Origin: Pirellulales bacterium
Lineage (GTDB): Bacteria; Planctomycetota; Planctomycetia; Pirellulales; Thermoguttaceae
Length of the DNA: 64,000 nucleotides
NCBI GenBank assembly: GCA_016935315.1
Contig: JAFGRD010000005.1
Coordinates: 1-64,000, forward strand
Direction: 5' to 3'
Shown here: positions 1 through 54,151 of the stretch, one piece after another
How the letters are laid out: every line of letters starts with the position of its first letter
Numbering within the stretch: the first letter of the stretch is position 1
The notes under the pieces: model-generated
The model's database searches: none
Told to the model about the DNA's origin: nothing
Seen by the model: only the letters and a program-made list of their open reading frames with translations
Made by a program: the position numbers and the translations under genes

Positions 1-125
1 GCCCTTCTGCCGAGCCGCGCCCTTCTGCCGAGCCGCGCCCTTCTGCCGAGCCGCGCCCGTAAGGAAGCGTCCCCCGAACCCCTGCCGCACCACGCCTCCC
101 ACTCCCTAACGGCCGCGGTTCCCTT
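1..125. repeat. REP-like element copy A with three 18-bp tandem units
   Basis: Positions 1-54 are three tandem copies of GCCCTTCTGCCGAGCCGC, followed by GTAAGGAAGCGT, a spacer, ACCACGCCTCCC and a CTCCCTAACGGCCGCGGTTCC tail. GGAAGCGT and ACGCcTCC form an imperfect inverted repeat. Copy C at 54026-54123 shares the same order of blocks. It lies at the 3' end of the RAYT. Confidence 0.75.
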
Positions 126-658
126 TTTCCCACGGGGGCCTCGGGCTTCTTGGCCCGGAGGTCGACGCCTTGTCCTTCGATCACGTACCGACACGCATCT
201 TCAAGCGATTTCTCGTCCCACAGGTAGCGCGTGCTGCCATGCCGCACCCAAGCCTTCTTTCCCCTTTCGAATGCCCCTGCTTCCACCATCCGCCGCGTGG
301 ACCAGGACTTGAAATCGTTCATGACCTTTTCGGGCTTTGTGTTTGCAGTTACCACAACATGCACGTGGTTCGTGCGAACACTGACCGCGTGAAGCTGCCA
401 GCCCCGATGTTCGGCGACTTCTTGGATAGTCCGCTCGACAACCGCCCGCCGCAGGTCATCCAGTCGTACGGCATCTTGCTTCATCTGCCGCTGAGCGGCT
501 TGTTGTCGTTTGGCGTCGGCAGGCAGCAAGTCCGTTTCGGGGATGTTGTGGTCGCGATCAACGGACCCGCGTTGGTCGCCGTGCAGCCATGTACCGTATG
601 TGTGGAAGGTGAGGAGGTAGGCTTCGACGTCGGTGTAGTCGTGTGACTGATCGAGGGA
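1..658 (-). CDS. REP-associated tyrosine transposase (RAYT), 3' end outside window, no own start codon seen
   Basis: Reverse-strand translation gives the usual RAYT landmarks. These are an N-terminal LLTFHTYGTWLHGD segment, the HUH motif NHVHVVV (second His codon at 359-361), then STRYLWDEKSLEDACRYVIEGQG, where the Tyr of YVIEGQ is the likely nucleophile. RAYTs belong to the IS200/IS605-like Y1 family and are thought to move or maintain REP palindromes. The C-terminus runs into GRGSAEG repeats encoded by the 18-bp units at 1-54 and is still open at base 1. I find no ATG between the repeat array at 729-836 and the conserved N-terminus. The frame is continuous with the restriction gene upstream, so expression may depend on that fusion. 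REP-like sequence flanks it on both sides. Family call is firm; functionality is doubtful. Confidence 0.8.
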
Positions 659-682
659 TTCGGCGGCGCGGCCGGTTCCTTG

Positions 683-859
683 GGGGCCGCTCCCTGACGG
701 TCGCGGTTCCGTTTTGCCCGCACCCTCCGAGCCGCATTCAGTCCCCGAGCCGCATTCAGTCCCCAAGCCGCGTTCAGTCCCCGAGCCGCGTTCAGTCCCC
801 GAGCCGCATTCAGTCCCCGAGCCGCATTCAGTCCCCGAGCCGCGCCCGTAAGGAAGCGG
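683..859. repeat. REP-like element copy B with six 18-bp tandem units
   Basis: The tail block CTCCCTGACGGTCGCGGTTCC (about 690-710) precedes six tandem units of the GAGCCGCATTCAGTCCCC type at 729-836, then GAGCCGCGCCCGTAAGGAAG (837-856). Units differ only at A/G and G/A positions. Because the unit is 18 bp it keeps the reverse reading frame open (GSGTEC/RG repeats). Confidence 0.75.
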
Positions 860-865
860 CAGACT

Positions 866-3556
866 CTCGTCACCGCCTGGCCCAACCAGCCAATCCACAC
901 CCGCCAAAGGAATCCGCGGCAACTCCCGCTTGAGATTCTCGGCGAACCGTTGGCGATAGCCCGGGTGGTGCAACACGCCGTAGACGTAGTAGAAGATGTC
1001 CCACTTGGAGATCTTCTCGTCGCCGTAATGTGCTCGGAAGTGCTTCAACGCCCAGTCCGTCACATTCTCCCGCCGGTTGGTGCCGTCTTCGTTGTAGACG
1101 TAGAAGGGGAAGCACTGTACTTTCTCAAACGCCAAGTCGAGGCTCACAATCGATTTGCTCACTAAGGCTCCGAAGCTCTTGCGGTTTCCCGGCCCCGGAA
1201 CTGCGATGAAGGCGTTCTCTCGCTCACAACACGGTGTTGGAAAGAGCTGCGCGAACAACCGTGTCTCCTCGTTGAGTATTGGGTCATAAAACAGATGCCG
1301 GCGGCAGAACGGCCTGTAGAGCGTGTTGCGCACTTTGCTATCCGAATACTCTGCGTACTTCCCACGCTTCAGATCCTGCTTCAAGTCCCGACTCCACTTG
1401 ATATTGTCGTATCGAACGAAGTCATCGGGCGACTCGCCGCGACCAGCGCGATGGTACCGGTCAACCTCAGCATTGTAATCGTCAACGAATCGCCTTACGC
1501 GCTGCGTGAGCGACTCAACGTGAAAGTCATATACGATGTCGTCGCGCGCGGTCACGACACCCAGTGAATACGTCTTCATTACGACCTGCTCGTCTGCAGA
1601 TGCAGCTTTGCGCTTGGCAGACTTGCTTCCTAACGAAAACAGCCGTTGATACTCAGAAGCGTGCTCTGGCACCAGCCATGTGCCCGCCGCATCGGGAACA
1701 AGCTCAGCCCAATCTGTGTTTGCCAAACTCCCAACACGAGTCAACCAGGAGAGTTTCTTCTCGCGCGGCCAGGTCTTCTCCACGCGATGGAAGTGAACCC
1801 GGCCGTGGGCATGTTGGTGGACGCGTGCCGCGATGGTTATCCCCACGCCAACTTGAATTCCGAACACATTGTATCTTGTGCCAGACAAGCTGGGGTTCTG
1901 TCGCACATTCCCTTCGAGATGCACGTGGTAGATACGGTTGAAGTCCTGGTGAAGGTGTTTTCGCATCCCATCGAACGCAAACTGGTCCACGAAGCTGTTG
2001 TTACTCACAAGGCATACGACACCGTCCTTGCCTCGAAGTCTGTCCGTCGCCCACCGAAAGAACTTGACATACGCGTCGCTCAGCTTGCTCACGCTGGTCG
2101 CGCGCGAATCCTTCGCGTATGTCTGCCTTACCCTGCTGTCAACCACGTCGTACTTCCGGTTCTTGTTGTTGTCGTTCTCGTTGAGTTGGCCCACGTTGTA
2201 TGGAGGATTGCCGATTACGACGGTGATGTCCGTGTCTTTCTGCCGGGTTACACGCTCGGTGTTCTCCTCGCTCATAAACGAAAACTCCGCCTGCCTCGCC
2301 TCCGCCAAGTCCAGCGTATCCACAAAGCACAGTCCCTCGAACGGCTCGTACTCCCCGGTGCGTTCGTAGTAGGCGTGTTCGATGTTCAGCGCGGCGATGT
2401 AGTAGGGCATGAGCATGACTTCGTTGGCGAAGAGCTGCTCGCGGTAGACCCGCCGCAGGTGGCGTTTGGGGATGCGGCGGATGAGGTTGACGATGAAGTT
2501 GCCCGTGCCCGTGCAGGGGTCGAGGATGTTTACGCCCGGCGAGCCGAGGTCCTTGCCGAACTCGGTCTTGAGCACCTCCTCGACGCTGGCGCACATGAAG
2601 TCGACGATCTCCTGGGGCGTGTAGACGATGCCCATCGTGTCGGCCACCTTGACCGAGTAGCCCTGGAAGAACCGCTCGTAGATGGTGTTGATGAAGTGCT
2701 GCTTCTCGGAGAAGTCGGCGATGGTGGCGGCGGCCGCCTCGATGGCCAGGTAGAAGCGGTCCAACGACTTGAGGAAGTCGTGCCGACTGAAGGAACGGCT
2801 CACCAAGGCGTCGACGACCTTCTCGACCTCGGCGGCGATCACGTTGCGGCGGACGAAGTCCTGGCGGTCGAAGATCGTGCGGATCAGCCGCTCCGTTAGG
2901 AGGTGCTACACGAGCATCTCGTCGACCGCCGCCTGGCTGAGGTTCGGGTTGAGCGACACCCGGCAGACCTCGAAAAAGTCGGTGAACGCCCGTTGGAAGT
3001 CCTTGTTCTCGCGGTGGGCCTGCTGGATCTTGGCCACCAGCCCCCGGGCAAGCTCGGGCACCCGCTGCTGAAACTCGCCGATCGCCTTGTCGAAATCCTC
3101 GTGGGCCGGCTCGGTGTAGCCAAAGAAGGCGTTGAGCAGGTCGCAGAGGTGCGTCGGCTGGGTCAGGTCGACCCGCATCGCCAGCTCGCCGCCCTGGTAG
3201 AGGCACGCCCGACGGGTGTCCTCGAAGATCGTGTTGCCCAACGGGTAGCCGGCGGCGATCTTCTTGCGGACCTCGGCCTCGAGGTCGTCGGCCGTGTCCT
3301 TGGCCTCCCAGTAGCCGCGGCGCATCTGGAAGTCGTCGCGGAAGGTCCCGTCGGGCCGGACCTTGCCCTTGCGGCCCTCGACGGAGAGTTCCGGAATCAA
3401 CGTCCAGCCGAACCGCCGGCCCGTCTCCTCCAGCAGGTGCTGAAACGCCGCCCGGACCGCCATCTCGTGCGAGACCCCCTGGGCGGCGAACTCGCCCAAC
3501 GCCTGGTAGTATTGCTTGACGGGCTTGTGGGTTGGCTTGACAGTGGGTGCTTCCAT
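866..3556 (-). pseudogene. Type ISP-like restriction-modification protein, internal amber stop and replaced 3' end
   Basis: Starts at ATG 3556 (MEAPTVKPTHKPVKQYY). Residues 1-216 form an N-terminal domain with a PD-(D/E)XK-like YWEAKD segment. A TAG at 2908-2906 then interrupts the frame in the context EMLV-stop-HLLTERL, where relatives have Gln, so CAG to TAG is the simplest reading. The same frame continues with an N6-adenine methylase: motif I DPCTGTGNF from about residue 346 and motif IV NPPY at about 450-453. The SF2 helicase of LlaGI-type enzymes is not evident. The protein reads up to FAENLKRELPRIP and then enters REP-like sequence (LPYGRGSGTECG repeats), so the usual C-terminus is missing. 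Codons after about 2400 are more AT-rich than the N-terminal half. Readthrough of the amber or restart would be needed for activity. Confidence 0.8.
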
Positions 3557-3854
3557 GGCTGTTTCGCGGAGAGTCCTTGGCTGTTGCCCCGAATGCGTTT
3601 TCGCACGCCGCCGGCTCGCAGCGATTCGGCGCGACGGGCCGTGCTCGGCCGTCCCCGCGGGCCGCGACGCCGACCATTATGCAATACACCCCCATCCGGT
3701 GGCAATACCCGCCCGCACGACCCGAAAAACGCGGCAAACCCCGCAGCGACTCGCCGGGCGGCGAGGGCGCGGTTAGAATGGAAGTGTTACGAATCGAAAA
3801 AGGACCGTCGGCGCGAGTGGGCCCGAAGTGCCCGCCGGATTCGCTTCCTCCTGA

Positions 3855-4835
3855 GTGAAGGTGTTGCTCGTGCGATTGCACATTGGGATCGTTTTGATCG
3901 TCGCTTTGACGAGCGTGCTTGGCTCGACCTCGCCGGGCCGGGCCCAGTTTCGCCAGTCCGAACCGGAGGGCGCGCCCATCGGCGACGCGCGGGTGCAGCG
4001 CCTGAAGGTAGGCATTGTGGTGACCGCGGCCGGGCCGTGTACCGGGATCGCGGGCTACACCAGCGTACCGATCGACTGGCCCGAGCAGCAGGTGAAGATC
4101 CTCGACGAGGAGATCTCGCCGTCGGTCAAGGTGGGCTATCAGCAGGTGGGCACGACCGGCAAGATGATGGTCGTGCAGATTCCCATGCTGGCGGCCGGCC
4201 AGGAGGCCAAGGCGATCGTGACCTTCGAGATCCGCCGCAGCGCGATTCTGCCGCCGGAGGACACAGACGTCTTCGAGCTGCCCAACCCGCGGCGGCTGGA
4301 CCGCCAGACGCGGCTCTATCTGGGGCCCAGCCCGCGGATCGAGAGCCGCGACCGGAAGATCCGCGAGTTGGCCAGGGAGATTGGGGCCGATCAGGCGAAG
4401 GCCTGGGGCCGGGTCGAGGCGATCTACGATTGGGTCCGCGAGAAGGTGGAGTACAAGTTCGACAAGCAGCTTCGCGGGGCGCTGGCGGCGTTGAACACGG
4501 GCGTGGGCGATTGCGAGGAGCTGACGTCGCTGTTTATTGCCATCTGTCGCGCGGCCGACATTCCGGCCCGCACCGTGCACGTGGAGGGGCACTGTTATCC
4601 CGAATTCTATCTGGTCGACGGCGAGGGCGAGGGGCATTGGTTTCCGTGCCAGGCGGCGGGCAGCCGGGCGTTCGGCGAGATGCCCGAGTTCCGGCCGATT
4701 CTCTCCAAGGGCGACAACTTCCGGCCGCCCTACGCGCCCCGCGACCAGCAACGCTACCTGGCCAACCACTTGACCGCCCGAAACGCGGTGGGCAGTCCCC
4801 GCGTCCGGTTCATTCGCGAGTTGGAGAGCGAGTAG
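3855..4835 (+). CDS. Secreted transglutaminase-like cysteine protease-fold protein
   Basis: 326 aa with a GTG start and an N-terminal hydrophobic signal segment (LHIGIVLIVALTSVLG). The core at about residues 195-270 is a transglutaminase-like domain: VEAIYDWVREKVEY, the nucleophile-type GVGDCEELTSLF with Cys, and a downstream HVEGHCYPEFYL His region. The usual third catalytic Asp is not obvious; the segment reads GHWFPCQAAG. The ribosome binding site is weak, so the start is uncertain. It ends 3 bp before the next gene on the same strand, suggesting co-transcription. Substrate unknown; such proteins are common in planctomycetes and may process peptides or proteins in the periplasm. Confidence 0.8.
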   Translation: MKVLLVRLHIGIVLIVALTSVLGSTSPGRAQFRQSEPEGAPIGDARVQRLKVGIVVTAAGPCTGIAGYTSVPIDWPEQQVKILDEEISPSVKVGYQQVGTTGKMMVVQIPMLAAGQEAKAIVTFEIRRSAILPPEDTDVFELPNPRRLDRQTRLYLGPSPRIESRDRKIRELAREIGADQAKAWGRVEAIYDWVREKVEYKFDKQLRGALAALNTGVGDCEELTSLFIAICRAADIPARTVHVEGHCYPEFYLVDGEGEGHWFPCQAAGSRAFGEMPEFRPILSKGDNFRPPYAPRDQQRYLANHLTARNAVGSPRVRFIRELESE

Positions 4836-4838
4836 AGC

Positions 4839-5654
4839 ATGCGAGCATTATGCATCCCGGCCATCCTGTTGTTGACTTGTCTGAGCGCCTATGCGGAGGA
4901 ACCCGTGATTGTCGCACACCGAGGGGCGTCGCGGGACGCGCCGGAAAACACGCTGCCGGCCTTTCGGCTGGCATGGGAGCAGGGCGCCGACGCGATTGAG
5001 GGCGATTTTCGCCTCACGCGGGACGGGCACATCGTGTGCATGCACGACGAAAGCACGAAGCGCGTCGCCGGGGAGGACCTGGCCATCGAGAAGTCGACGC
5101 TGGCGGCGTTGCGCAAGCTGGACGTGGGGGCGCACCACGGCCCGCAGTTTGAAGGAACGCCCATTCCGACCATCGCCGAGGTGTTCGCGACCGTCCCGGA
5201 TCGCGGCAAGAGGGTCTACGTGGAGATCAAGTGCGGCGTCGAGATCATTCCGCCGCTGTTGGCGGAAATCGCCCAAGCGGGTCTCGAGCCGCAGCAGGTG
5301 GTGATCATCTCGTTCCACGAGGAGGTGATCCAGGCGATCAAGGCCCGGGCCCCGCGGTACAAGGCCTTCTGGCTGTGCGGTTTCAAGGAGGAGAAGGAGT
5401 CGGGCAAGGTCGTTCCCTCGCCGCAGAGCGTGCTGGAGACGCTCGAGCGGATCGAGGCCGACGGGCTCAGCTCGGGCAAGGACCTAATCGACGAGTCGCT
5501 GATCCAGCGCGTCAGGGACAAGGGATATGAGTACCACGTCTGGACCGTGGACGATCCGGATACGGCCAGACGTTTCCAGAAATGGGGAGCCCGGTCGATT
5601 ACCACGAACGTGCCGGGCTTGATGAGGAAGCATCTCGTCGGGGCGGGGAGCTGA
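4839..5654 (+). CDS. Secreted glycerophosphodiester phosphodiesterase
   Basis: 271 aa with a short N-terminal signal peptide (ALCIPAILLLTCLSAYA). The GDPD family signature is complete: IVAHRGASRDAPENTL near residue 25, DAIEGDFRLTRDGHIVCMHD with the metal-binding Glu/Asp and second His, then VYVEIK around residue 130 and the C-terminal VWTVDDPDTARRFQKWGARSITTN. The family hydrolyses glycerophosphodiesters to glycerol-3-phosphate and an alcohol. It follows the transglutaminase-like gene after 3 bp. Family is sure; the substrate is not known. Confidence 0.9.
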   Translation: MRALCIPAILLLTCLSAYAEEPVIVAHRGASRDAPENTLPAFRLAWEQGADAIEGDFRLTRDGHIVCMHDESTKRVAGEDLAIEKSTLAALRKLDVGAHHGPQFEGTPIPTIAEVFATVPDRGKRVYVEIKCGVEIIPPLLAEIAQAGLEPQQVVIISFHEEVIQAIKARAPRYKAFWLCGFKEEKESGKVVPSPQSVLETLERIEADGLSSGKDLIDESLIQRVRDKGYEYHVWTVDDPDTARRFQKWGARSITTNVPGLMRKHLVGAGS

Positions 5655-5713
5655 GGACTCGCGGCGGCGATGAATCGACGATTGCGGCGGCCGGGCCGCT
5701 GCCCGTCTTCTCG

Positions 5714-6082
5714 CTACTCCCGCTCGTCCAGCCAGCGGACGACGGCCTCGGCCGTTGCCGGGTTGGTGGCCAGCGGCACGCGATGCACGTCGCAGACGCG
5801 CATCAGGGCCGAGACGTCCGGTTCGTGGGGCTGGGCGGTCAATGGGTCGCGGAAGAAGATGATCGCCTCGACCTGGTTTTGGGCGACGCGGCCGCCGATG
5901 ATCAGGTCGCCCCCTTCGGGGCCGTGGGCGACCCGTTCCACTTCCAGCTCGAGCTGTCGCTGCAGCAGCCCGCCCGTGTTTCCGGTGGCCACCAGGCGAC
6001 GGCTGCGGAAAAAGTCGAGATGCGCCGTGACGAACTCGACCAGGGCCGACTTTTTCTTGTCGTGGGCGATCAGGGCAATCAT
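5714..6082 (-). CDS. mgsA: Methylglyoxal synthase
   Basis: 122 aa. The start chosen is ATG 6082, which has AGGAAGG 8 bases upstream; a GTG at 6091 lies inside that ribosome-binding site. MIALIAHDKKK, the ATGNTGG phosphate-binding loop, and GPEGGDLIIGGRV plus FFRDPL are typical of MgsA, which converts dihydroxyacetone phosphate to methylglyoxal and phosphate in a glycolytic bypass when phosphate is short. It is a single gene on the minus strand, convergent with the GDPD gene. Length matches the family core. Confidence 0.93.
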   Translation of the reverse strand: MIALIAHDKKKSALVEFVTAHLDFFRSRRLVATGNTGGLLQRQLELEVERVAHGPEGGDLIIGGRVAQNQVEAIIFFRDPLTAQPHEPDVSALMRVCDVHRVPLATNPATAEAVVRWLDERE

Positions 6083-54025: not shown

Positions 54026-54123
54026 CGAGCCGCGCCCGTATGCCGAGCCGCGCCCGTAAGGAAGCGTCCCCTGAAGCGGGCCGCACCACGCTTCCGACTC
54101 CCTAACGGTCGTGGCTCCGCTTC
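54026..54123. repeat. REP-like element copy C
   Basis: Two GAGCCGCGCCCGTA units precede AAGGAAGCGTCCCC, a spacer, ACCACGCTTCCGACTCCCTA and ACGGTCGTGGCTCCGCTTC. GGAAGCGT and ACGCTTCC form a perfect 8-bp inverted repeat. Block order equals copy A beside the RAYT, 54 kb away. It lies between convergent genes. Confidence 0.8.
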
Positions 54124-54151
54124 TTCCCCGGATTGCCGCCACCGTAGGGAT

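Follow-up and report, generated by a model that had tools for sequence, protein, structure and literature searches.

Transposases of TnpAY1 class 3, which form REPtron elements with repetitive extragenic palindromes (REPs), are HUH/Y1 enzymes found mainly in Planctomycetes, Acidobacteria and Proteobacteria. In the sections of PMC6006769 considered here, they are encoded by genes of their own, and over-long transposases are discarded as fusions or annotation errors. REPs alone are known as in-frame inserts in host genes, including tRNA synthetase genes, where they are read as peptide, and the Rickettsia palindromic elements, which also insert in frame in host genes, are mentioned in the same source (PMC3733652, in the part available to us). 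In this work, we describe a 64,000-nucleotide stretch of DNA from a Pirellulales bacterium (hereafter the window; GenBank assembly GCA_016935315.1, contig JAFGRD010000005.1), in which a REP-associated tyrosine transposase (RAYT) lies within a type ISP restriction gene. We consider it probable that the window carries a REP-RAYT element (REPtron, TnpAY1 class 3) inserted in frame in the type ISP gene, and that this arrangement is recurrent in Planctomycetota.

The closest described systems differ from this locus in what is inserted and where. The inserts in the accessible part of PMC3733652 measure 20 to 30 residues, or 43 to 82 in clusters, whereas the insert here includes an entire transposase core (about 155 residues). 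In tnpAREP subclass 2.4, as far as covered by the sections of PMC6006769 considered, a REP is likewise inserted in frame without disrupting the frame; there the REP enters a transposase, while here, conversely, the transposase enters a host enzyme. Short in-frame REPs are already known. No report of whole RAYTs inside host genes was found in the open-access literature searched, and a term search for them in the accessible part of PMC2817692 gave no occurrence.

On the minus strand, positions 2905..2 form a single open frame of 968 codons with 0 stops; the remaining two minus-strand frames over this stretch contain 32 and 24. A preliminary description of the sequence had proposed exactly this, a frame without stop from an amber codon at 2908 to base 1, which passes from a type ISP methylase through GSGTEC repeats into a RAYT, and Pfam, TRF and the translation agree with it. 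In the open reading frame (ORF) 2-2842, Pfam detects Type_ISP_C (1.1e-68, profile 2-223 of 342), N6_Mtase, Eco57I and Y1_Tnp. The Type_ISP_C domain adjoins the N6 methylase, as in type ISP enzymes. As its match ends at position 223 of 342, the C-terminus is missing from the window frame. The methylase and most of the specificity domain (902..2905, minus strand; Pfam and PADLOC) end with ...FAENLKRELPRIPLA, match PADLOC REase_MTase_IIG at 2.2e-168 and are 61% identical to a relative in genome G002. An N-terminal type ISP/IIG fragment of 216 aa (2906..3556, minus strand) matches the same PADLOC profile (5.6e-36, positions 8-212 of 1024) and ends at the amber codon 2908-2906. This codon is real in this assembly, and the relatives L019, L086 and L014 have Gln there. 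A complete single type ISP polypeptide is hence not present in the window, given the amber at 2908 and the incomplete C-terminus.

The RAYT (158..667, minus strand; Pfam and alignment) resembles TnpAY1 class 3. Its Y1_Tnp match (E 3e-8 to 1.9e-7) is over the Pfam cut-off and is the only one in the assembly, so further RAYTs in this genome were rejected; the REP_Tyr_transpos model NF047646 gives 28.6 bits, below its curated cut-off of 80 bits. The HUH motif RTNHVHVVV contains NHVH, and the tyrosine motif YVIEGQ has the form Y----Q. Both are features of class 3, which is flanked by hairpins with CnGA feet (PMC6006769, sections considered). The REP feet are CGGA in the left forward copy, GGGA in the right copy and CCGA or CGGA in four other copies of the genome. 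The W[TA] motif of the published class 3 table, a single consensus position, is absent from the window RAYT (WVRHGST; WTRHGST in the relative L026). REP hairpin folding energy was no better than that of shuffles for two GTTA-type copies and weak for the other copies. By NHVH, Y----Q and the taxonomic setting, the RAYT appears to fit TnpAY1 class 3; unlike the members described in those sections of PMC6006769, it stands within a host frame and has lost its own start and stop.

Reading along the minus strand, the host N-terminal part is followed by a REP/array linker, the RAYT (which has neither an ATG start nor a stop of its own), a second REP/array linker and the host C-terminal part, all in one frame. 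The left linker contains an inverse REP (835..856, read LPYGRGS; an exact match to the genome's REP arm), an 18-bp tandem array of 6.5 copies with 95% matches (727..843, read (GSGTEC)n) and a forward REP (687..703, pattern match, read EPRPSGSG). The right linker contains a forward REP (99..115, pattern match, read EPRPLGSG), an inverse REP (46..67, exact match, read LPYGRGS) and a second 18-bp array, (AEGRGS)n, of 3.2 copies with 100% matches (1..58), which runs off the contig end; all six features lie on the minus strand, and both arrays were found with TRF. As the repeat unit is 18 bp, the frame is kept by any whole number of units. Exact matches of the inverse REP arm occur 3 times in the window against 0.01 expected, and REPs are rare in the 7.1 Mb genome (5 forward-pattern copies and 7 inverse-pattern copies with at most 3 mismatches). 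A second REP pair of the same family is located at window positions 54026-54128, directly past the end of a coding frame.

Base 1 of the window (G000:C97:1-64000) is the end of contig C97 in an assembly of 172 contigs, so the frame is interrupted by assembly and not by biology. Searched at the DNA level with this stretch, the assembly gave 51 candidates, of which 40 were scored. The matches listed are seven: the window itself, REP copies on C42 (two), on C48 and at C97:54026, and two at the end of C52; these two overlapping matches at the end of C52 cover the last 58 bases of the query, that is, the array, with the last matched base 7 before the contig end. Among these matches, the array recurs at no contig end other than that of C52. 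Inward from its end, the same 18-bp units run in the same frame (AEGRGS) and are followed by DLFYAFADAGRELARLHLDYEQLEPYELKWLETPDVPLSYRVEKMRLSKDKTQLKVNDP and a stop. The sequence after the AEGRGS repeats, FYAFADAGRELARLHLDYEQLEPYELKWLETPDVPLSYRVEKMRLSKDKTQLKVND, aligns at 74% over 57 residues to the C-terminus of the G002 relative and corresponds to the region that follows the last host residues FAENLKRELPRIPLA in the window. The preliminary description had suggested that the locus could be an in-frame REP/RAYT insertion, with 18-bp units preserving the frame, and had named the sequence left of base 1 as the check. The (GSGTEC)n translation of the one array and the continuation of the other in frame on C52 agree with units that preserve the frame, and the type ISP C-terminus recovered there in frame supports the insertion, provided that the contigs join. 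Its expectation that the rest of the gene lies beyond base 1 is borne out for these 57 residues and not for the last part: for the relative's final 82 residues after KVND, no convincing counterpart was found in C52:70000-74490 or window 1-6000. A TspO/MBR-family frame on the C52 end (L005 897-1388) starts where the truncated type ISP frame stops, which suggests a deletion junction.

The arrangement is not confined to this locus. A scan with a RAYT alignment over contigs of 84,980 species gave 421 relatives. We retained the best 80; these loci are the closest to the window RAYT and not a random sample. In 19 of them, the RAYT lies inside a host gene in the same strand and frame: alanyl-tRNA synthetase (AlaRS) in 10 (L068 with two RAYTs, L071, L072, L075, L076, L078, L080, L084, L091 and L100), valyl-tRNA synthetase (ValRS) in 8 (L092, L093, L095, L099, L101, L102, L103 and L107) and, besides the window, a type ISP gene in one (L086). 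L214 from genome G470 is the same as L092 and was counted once. In L080 and L086, the contig ends just past or within the RAYT. At all 17 embedded loci readable on both sides, 50 codons are open on either side of the RAYT; among the 61 other loci, this applies to the right side in 0/61 and to the left side in 15/61. Four REP-derived peptides recur in the 19 embedded frames, namely SRDRx(G/E)A in 12, PLP(H/Y/D)GRGS in 15, EPRPSGS-like in 5 and AATVRER-like in 4, with at least one of them in 17/19. Counted among the 61 is L118, in which a RAYT with its own stop follows in frame the C-terminal end of another protein (2101-3495), which we take to be a CMP-sugar synthetase; a C-terminal type of fusion is possible.

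A survey of 392 Planctomycetota genomes, with up to 9 candidates scored per genome, gave at least 61 matches in at least 31 genomes at the threshold of E 1e-25. At least five of them lie in open frames longer than 900 aa: the window (968), G391 (1614), G470 (1271), G467 (1345) and G298 (1283). Among the matches listed, the next-largest RAYT frame has 365 aa, and the embedded RAYT is the only match at this threshold in G000, G391, G467 and G298. In G391, a single contig of 7.74 Mb, the host is BREX-2 PglX, which matches NF033451 with 1574 bits in two stretches around the insert. In G467, also a single contig, it is ValRS. This recurrence adds to the preliminary description, which was an observation at a single locus. 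An assembly chimera might be suspected, as the named carriers are metagenome assemblies and the window array stands at a contig end. Against it, the two single-contig genomes and many separate assemblies show the same arrangement, and conserved host domains lie on both sides of the insert. A chimera has very little probability overall and is already largely refuted for the class.

The insertion sites differ between and within host genes. In the alaS profile TIGR00344, inserts are near 253-268 in 8/10 loci, near 373-380 in L100 and in the first copy of L068, and near 714-722 in the second copy of L068. In the valS profile TIGR00422, they are near 365-385. Mapped onto structures, the L091 insert in AlaRS falls between residues ~281 and 284 of 5knn, and the G467 insert in ValRS between residues 363 and 377 of 1gax. 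The type ISP insert points also differ, with the window at Type_ISP_C position 223 and L086 past 185. In L068, one and the same alanyl-tRNA synthetase holds two distinct RAYTs, each at its own site.

AlaRS and ValRS are essential. Over the cut-off, exactly one AlaRS, the RAYT-bearing one, is present in 9 of the 10 carrier genomes; in G090, the contig ends inside the gene. Likewise, one ValRS, which bears the RAYT, is present in 7 of the 8 carrier genomes (among the matches listed), and in G098 the gene is cut by the contig. G467 and G298 each have one ValRS over the cut-off. As these enzymes are essential and sole copies, the fused genes must yield active enzyme unless the assemblies miss a copy; in G467, the assembly is a single contig.

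Several observations weigh against an in-frame element that is carried and expressed by its host gene. The nearest relative of the window RAYT (L026/L067, 70%) is free-standing and has an ATG start, and alternative in-frame starts exist in the window (GTG 898, TTG 766, TTG 529 and ATG 484). That the RAYT is translated as part of host fusions, and that C97 joins C52, are our inferences; these contig ends share an exact overlap of 29 or 47 bases, as a repeat would produce in any case. L075 and L092 lack all four REP peptides, the former showing diverged forms of them and the latter carrying different repeats in its flanks. The end of AlaRS in L100 is out of frame with the rest, and the resolution of the RAYT tree is poor. 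Because of the amber 2908 and the lost C-terminal end, the host type ISP protein of the window is probably non-functional. A stop likewise interrupts the host frame of L086, close to the boundary between nuclease and methylase, and the open type ISP frame through the insert could be due to chance, as the DNA is GC-rich and stop-poor.

These last points lead to a second explanation for this locus, in which the RAYT entered a restriction gene that was already dead, and the open frame is a matter of chance, owed solely to the coding RAYT and to the scarcity of stops in the GC-rich arrays. The amber, the type ISP end missing from C52:70000-74490 and window 1-6000, the stop in the other type ISP carrier and the stop-free extragenic REPs of the same pattern in this genome (TTA 3/3, see below) all fit it. 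It does not account for RAYTs that lie in frame within AlaRS and ValRS genes present as sole copies, nor for the contrast of 17/17 to 0/61 in open flanks, and the methylase part of the window frame has no stop besides the amber at 2908. We regard a dead gene as a serious possibility, to which we would give somewhat less than even weight.

In both type ISP carriers, the window and L086, an in-frame stop splits the N-terminal part from the methylase part. The two stops are near each other, and their positions differ. The N-terminal part of both contains a GYWEAKD motif, which is presumably nuclease-like, and a stop at this place could leave an orphan methylase.

The host reading also bears on how the RAYT starts and stops. 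In L026/L067, the RAYT stop is a TAA within the forward REP, and the window reads the sense codons TCA and TTA at the two matching REP positions. Under the same pattern, the remaining forward REPs of this genome read TTA in 3/3 cases; hence, the lost stop is a trait of the REP family and gives no evidence of selection at this locus, and the idea that the missing stop was selected was dropped. At the start, positions 667-665 encode alanine where the L026 RAYT has its ATG, and no in-frame ATG occurs between 1050 and 484, ahead of or within the RAYT. The earlier claim of a RAYT without a start codon thus stands for ATG and for the homologous position and fails for GTG 898 and TTG 766, which are in frame. 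From such an internal start, the RAYT might be translated independently, with the host frame a mere passenger, and 4/19 embedded RAYTs have indeed retained a start codon in the 20 codons before them. The other 15/19 have not, against 57/61 of the remaining loci that have one (Fisher p 1.8e-9); counting ATG alone, the numbers are 1/19 and 44/61. Moreover, the right flank must stay open for the host enzyme. Independent expression is therefore unlikely.

Inteins also place a mobile-enzyme segment in frame within conserved proteins. Unlike inteins, the embedded RAYTs have no splicing domain and are flanked by REP peptides. If the insert were nevertheless removed from the RNA or protein as an unrecognised intron or intein, the open frame would be incidental, and the recurrent sites in conserved enzymes do resemble those of inteins and introns. 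The ShiLan insert in a phage methylase is a precedent for in-frame-open inserts of another nature: in the part of PMC11855218 available to us, it is likewise a stop-free mobile insert in which no splicing domain was found, and it encodes an HNH nuclease in a different frame, whereas the RAYT here is in the host frame. A search with Pfam and NCBIfam (E 0.001) found no splicing domain in the window frame or in five carriers (L072, L102, L252, L251 and L086), which speaks against an intein. In 10 loci, no Rfam family reached the gathering score; the 0 matches to the intron models speak against a self-splicing intron as well. The several sites per gene, the REP-only inserts without any domain and the loss of the RAYT's own start also speak against splicing, which we consider improbable, more so than an internal start.

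The embedded RAYTs are under purifying selection. In the 24 closest of 42 computed pairs, drawn from 7/10 AlaRS and 7/8 ValRS loci, the proportion of synonymous differences (pS) is 0.60-0.82 and that of nonsynonymous differences (pN) is 0.15-0.33; the protein is conserved with synonymous sites near saturation. HxH is present in 19/19, with NHVH-like forms in 18 (L101 has THLH), and L103 has RHLH. Y----Q is found in 17/19; L099 is without it, and L086 is cut before the motif. RAYT and host distances are correlated for AlaRS site A (r 0.51, p 0.036, 8 loci), and no correlation was found for ValRS (r 0.19, p 0.29, 8 loci). A quick RAYT tree, from which L145 was left out, groups the majority of the AlaRS and of the ValRS insertions with poor support. 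A total of 5 switches between embedded and non-embedded states are required on it, and its well-supported branches by themselves force only 1. Repeated insertion is seen more clearly from the range of hosts (four genes) and of sites than from this tree.

Structure models were uninformative, and we place no weight on them. The mean predicted local distance difference test score (pLDDT) was poor for the window (45.5, 6 rows) and moderate for the AlaRS-RAYT fusion of L091 (61.9, 8 rows). In the latter, blocks of the RAYT core at 361-460 average 58-89, residues 321-360 and the linkers stay below 50, as does most of the AlaRS catalytic part. Foldseek against the PDB gave mostly AlaRS/AlaX folds and a few replication/RecJ-type entries, with no RAYT entry, in the best 50 of 834 matches.

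From these data, we propose how an in-frame REP-RAYT element may arise and persist. As expected for the HUH/Y1 family, the transposase would cut and rejoin single-stranded DNA at REP hairpins and so move the REPs together with the RAYT. The REP sense strand is stop-free in most frames, so that an insertion at a tolerant linker would be read through. In essential single-copy genes, selection would remove out-of-frame insertions, and in-frame ones would survive. The host gene would then supply transcription and translation, and the RAYT's own start would decay. In the window, the host would be a dispensable restriction gene, with its amber and lost end. A further proposal, for and against which we see the case as evenly balanced, is that class 3 RAYTs of this kind are produced only inside essential (AlaRS, ValRS) or defence (type ISP, BREX-2 PglX) enzymes, via stop-free REP linkers. 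Removal would be harmless only if exact, which would keep the element where it is, and the RAYT would occupy an intein-like niche without splicing. To our knowledge, how REP/RAYT transposases persist in genomes is an open question; carriage within indispensable host genes would account for it even if they seldom jump. Embedded RAYTs would also be cases in nature where tRNA synthetases tolerate large in-frame insertions. Catalogues that drop over-long transposases, as in the sections of PMC6006769 considered here, can lose a real biological arrangement.

In-frame REP peptides are also present outside synthetases, consistent with the part of PMC3733652 available to us. On 0.8 Mb of the G467 chromosome, 24 REPs (at most 3 mismatches) form 13 clusters, and ten ORFs spanning such clusters were scanned with Pfam. 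MnmA (L259 1262-2782) carries in-frame REP clusters at two places and a PLP-dependent enzyme (L281 5541-6854) at one; in the FlgK frame, the cluster is upstream of the likely start. Seven of the ten ORFs gave no Pfam family. The RAYT-carrying AlaRS of L100 also has REP-only inserts (G093:C77:151666-151929), and the part of it after a REP array lies in another frame. An open frame of 1647 aa (G084:C27:56414-60835) encodes a class I synthetase that scores below the valS cut-off; it may be an isoleucyl-tRNA synthetase and possibly holds several inserts.

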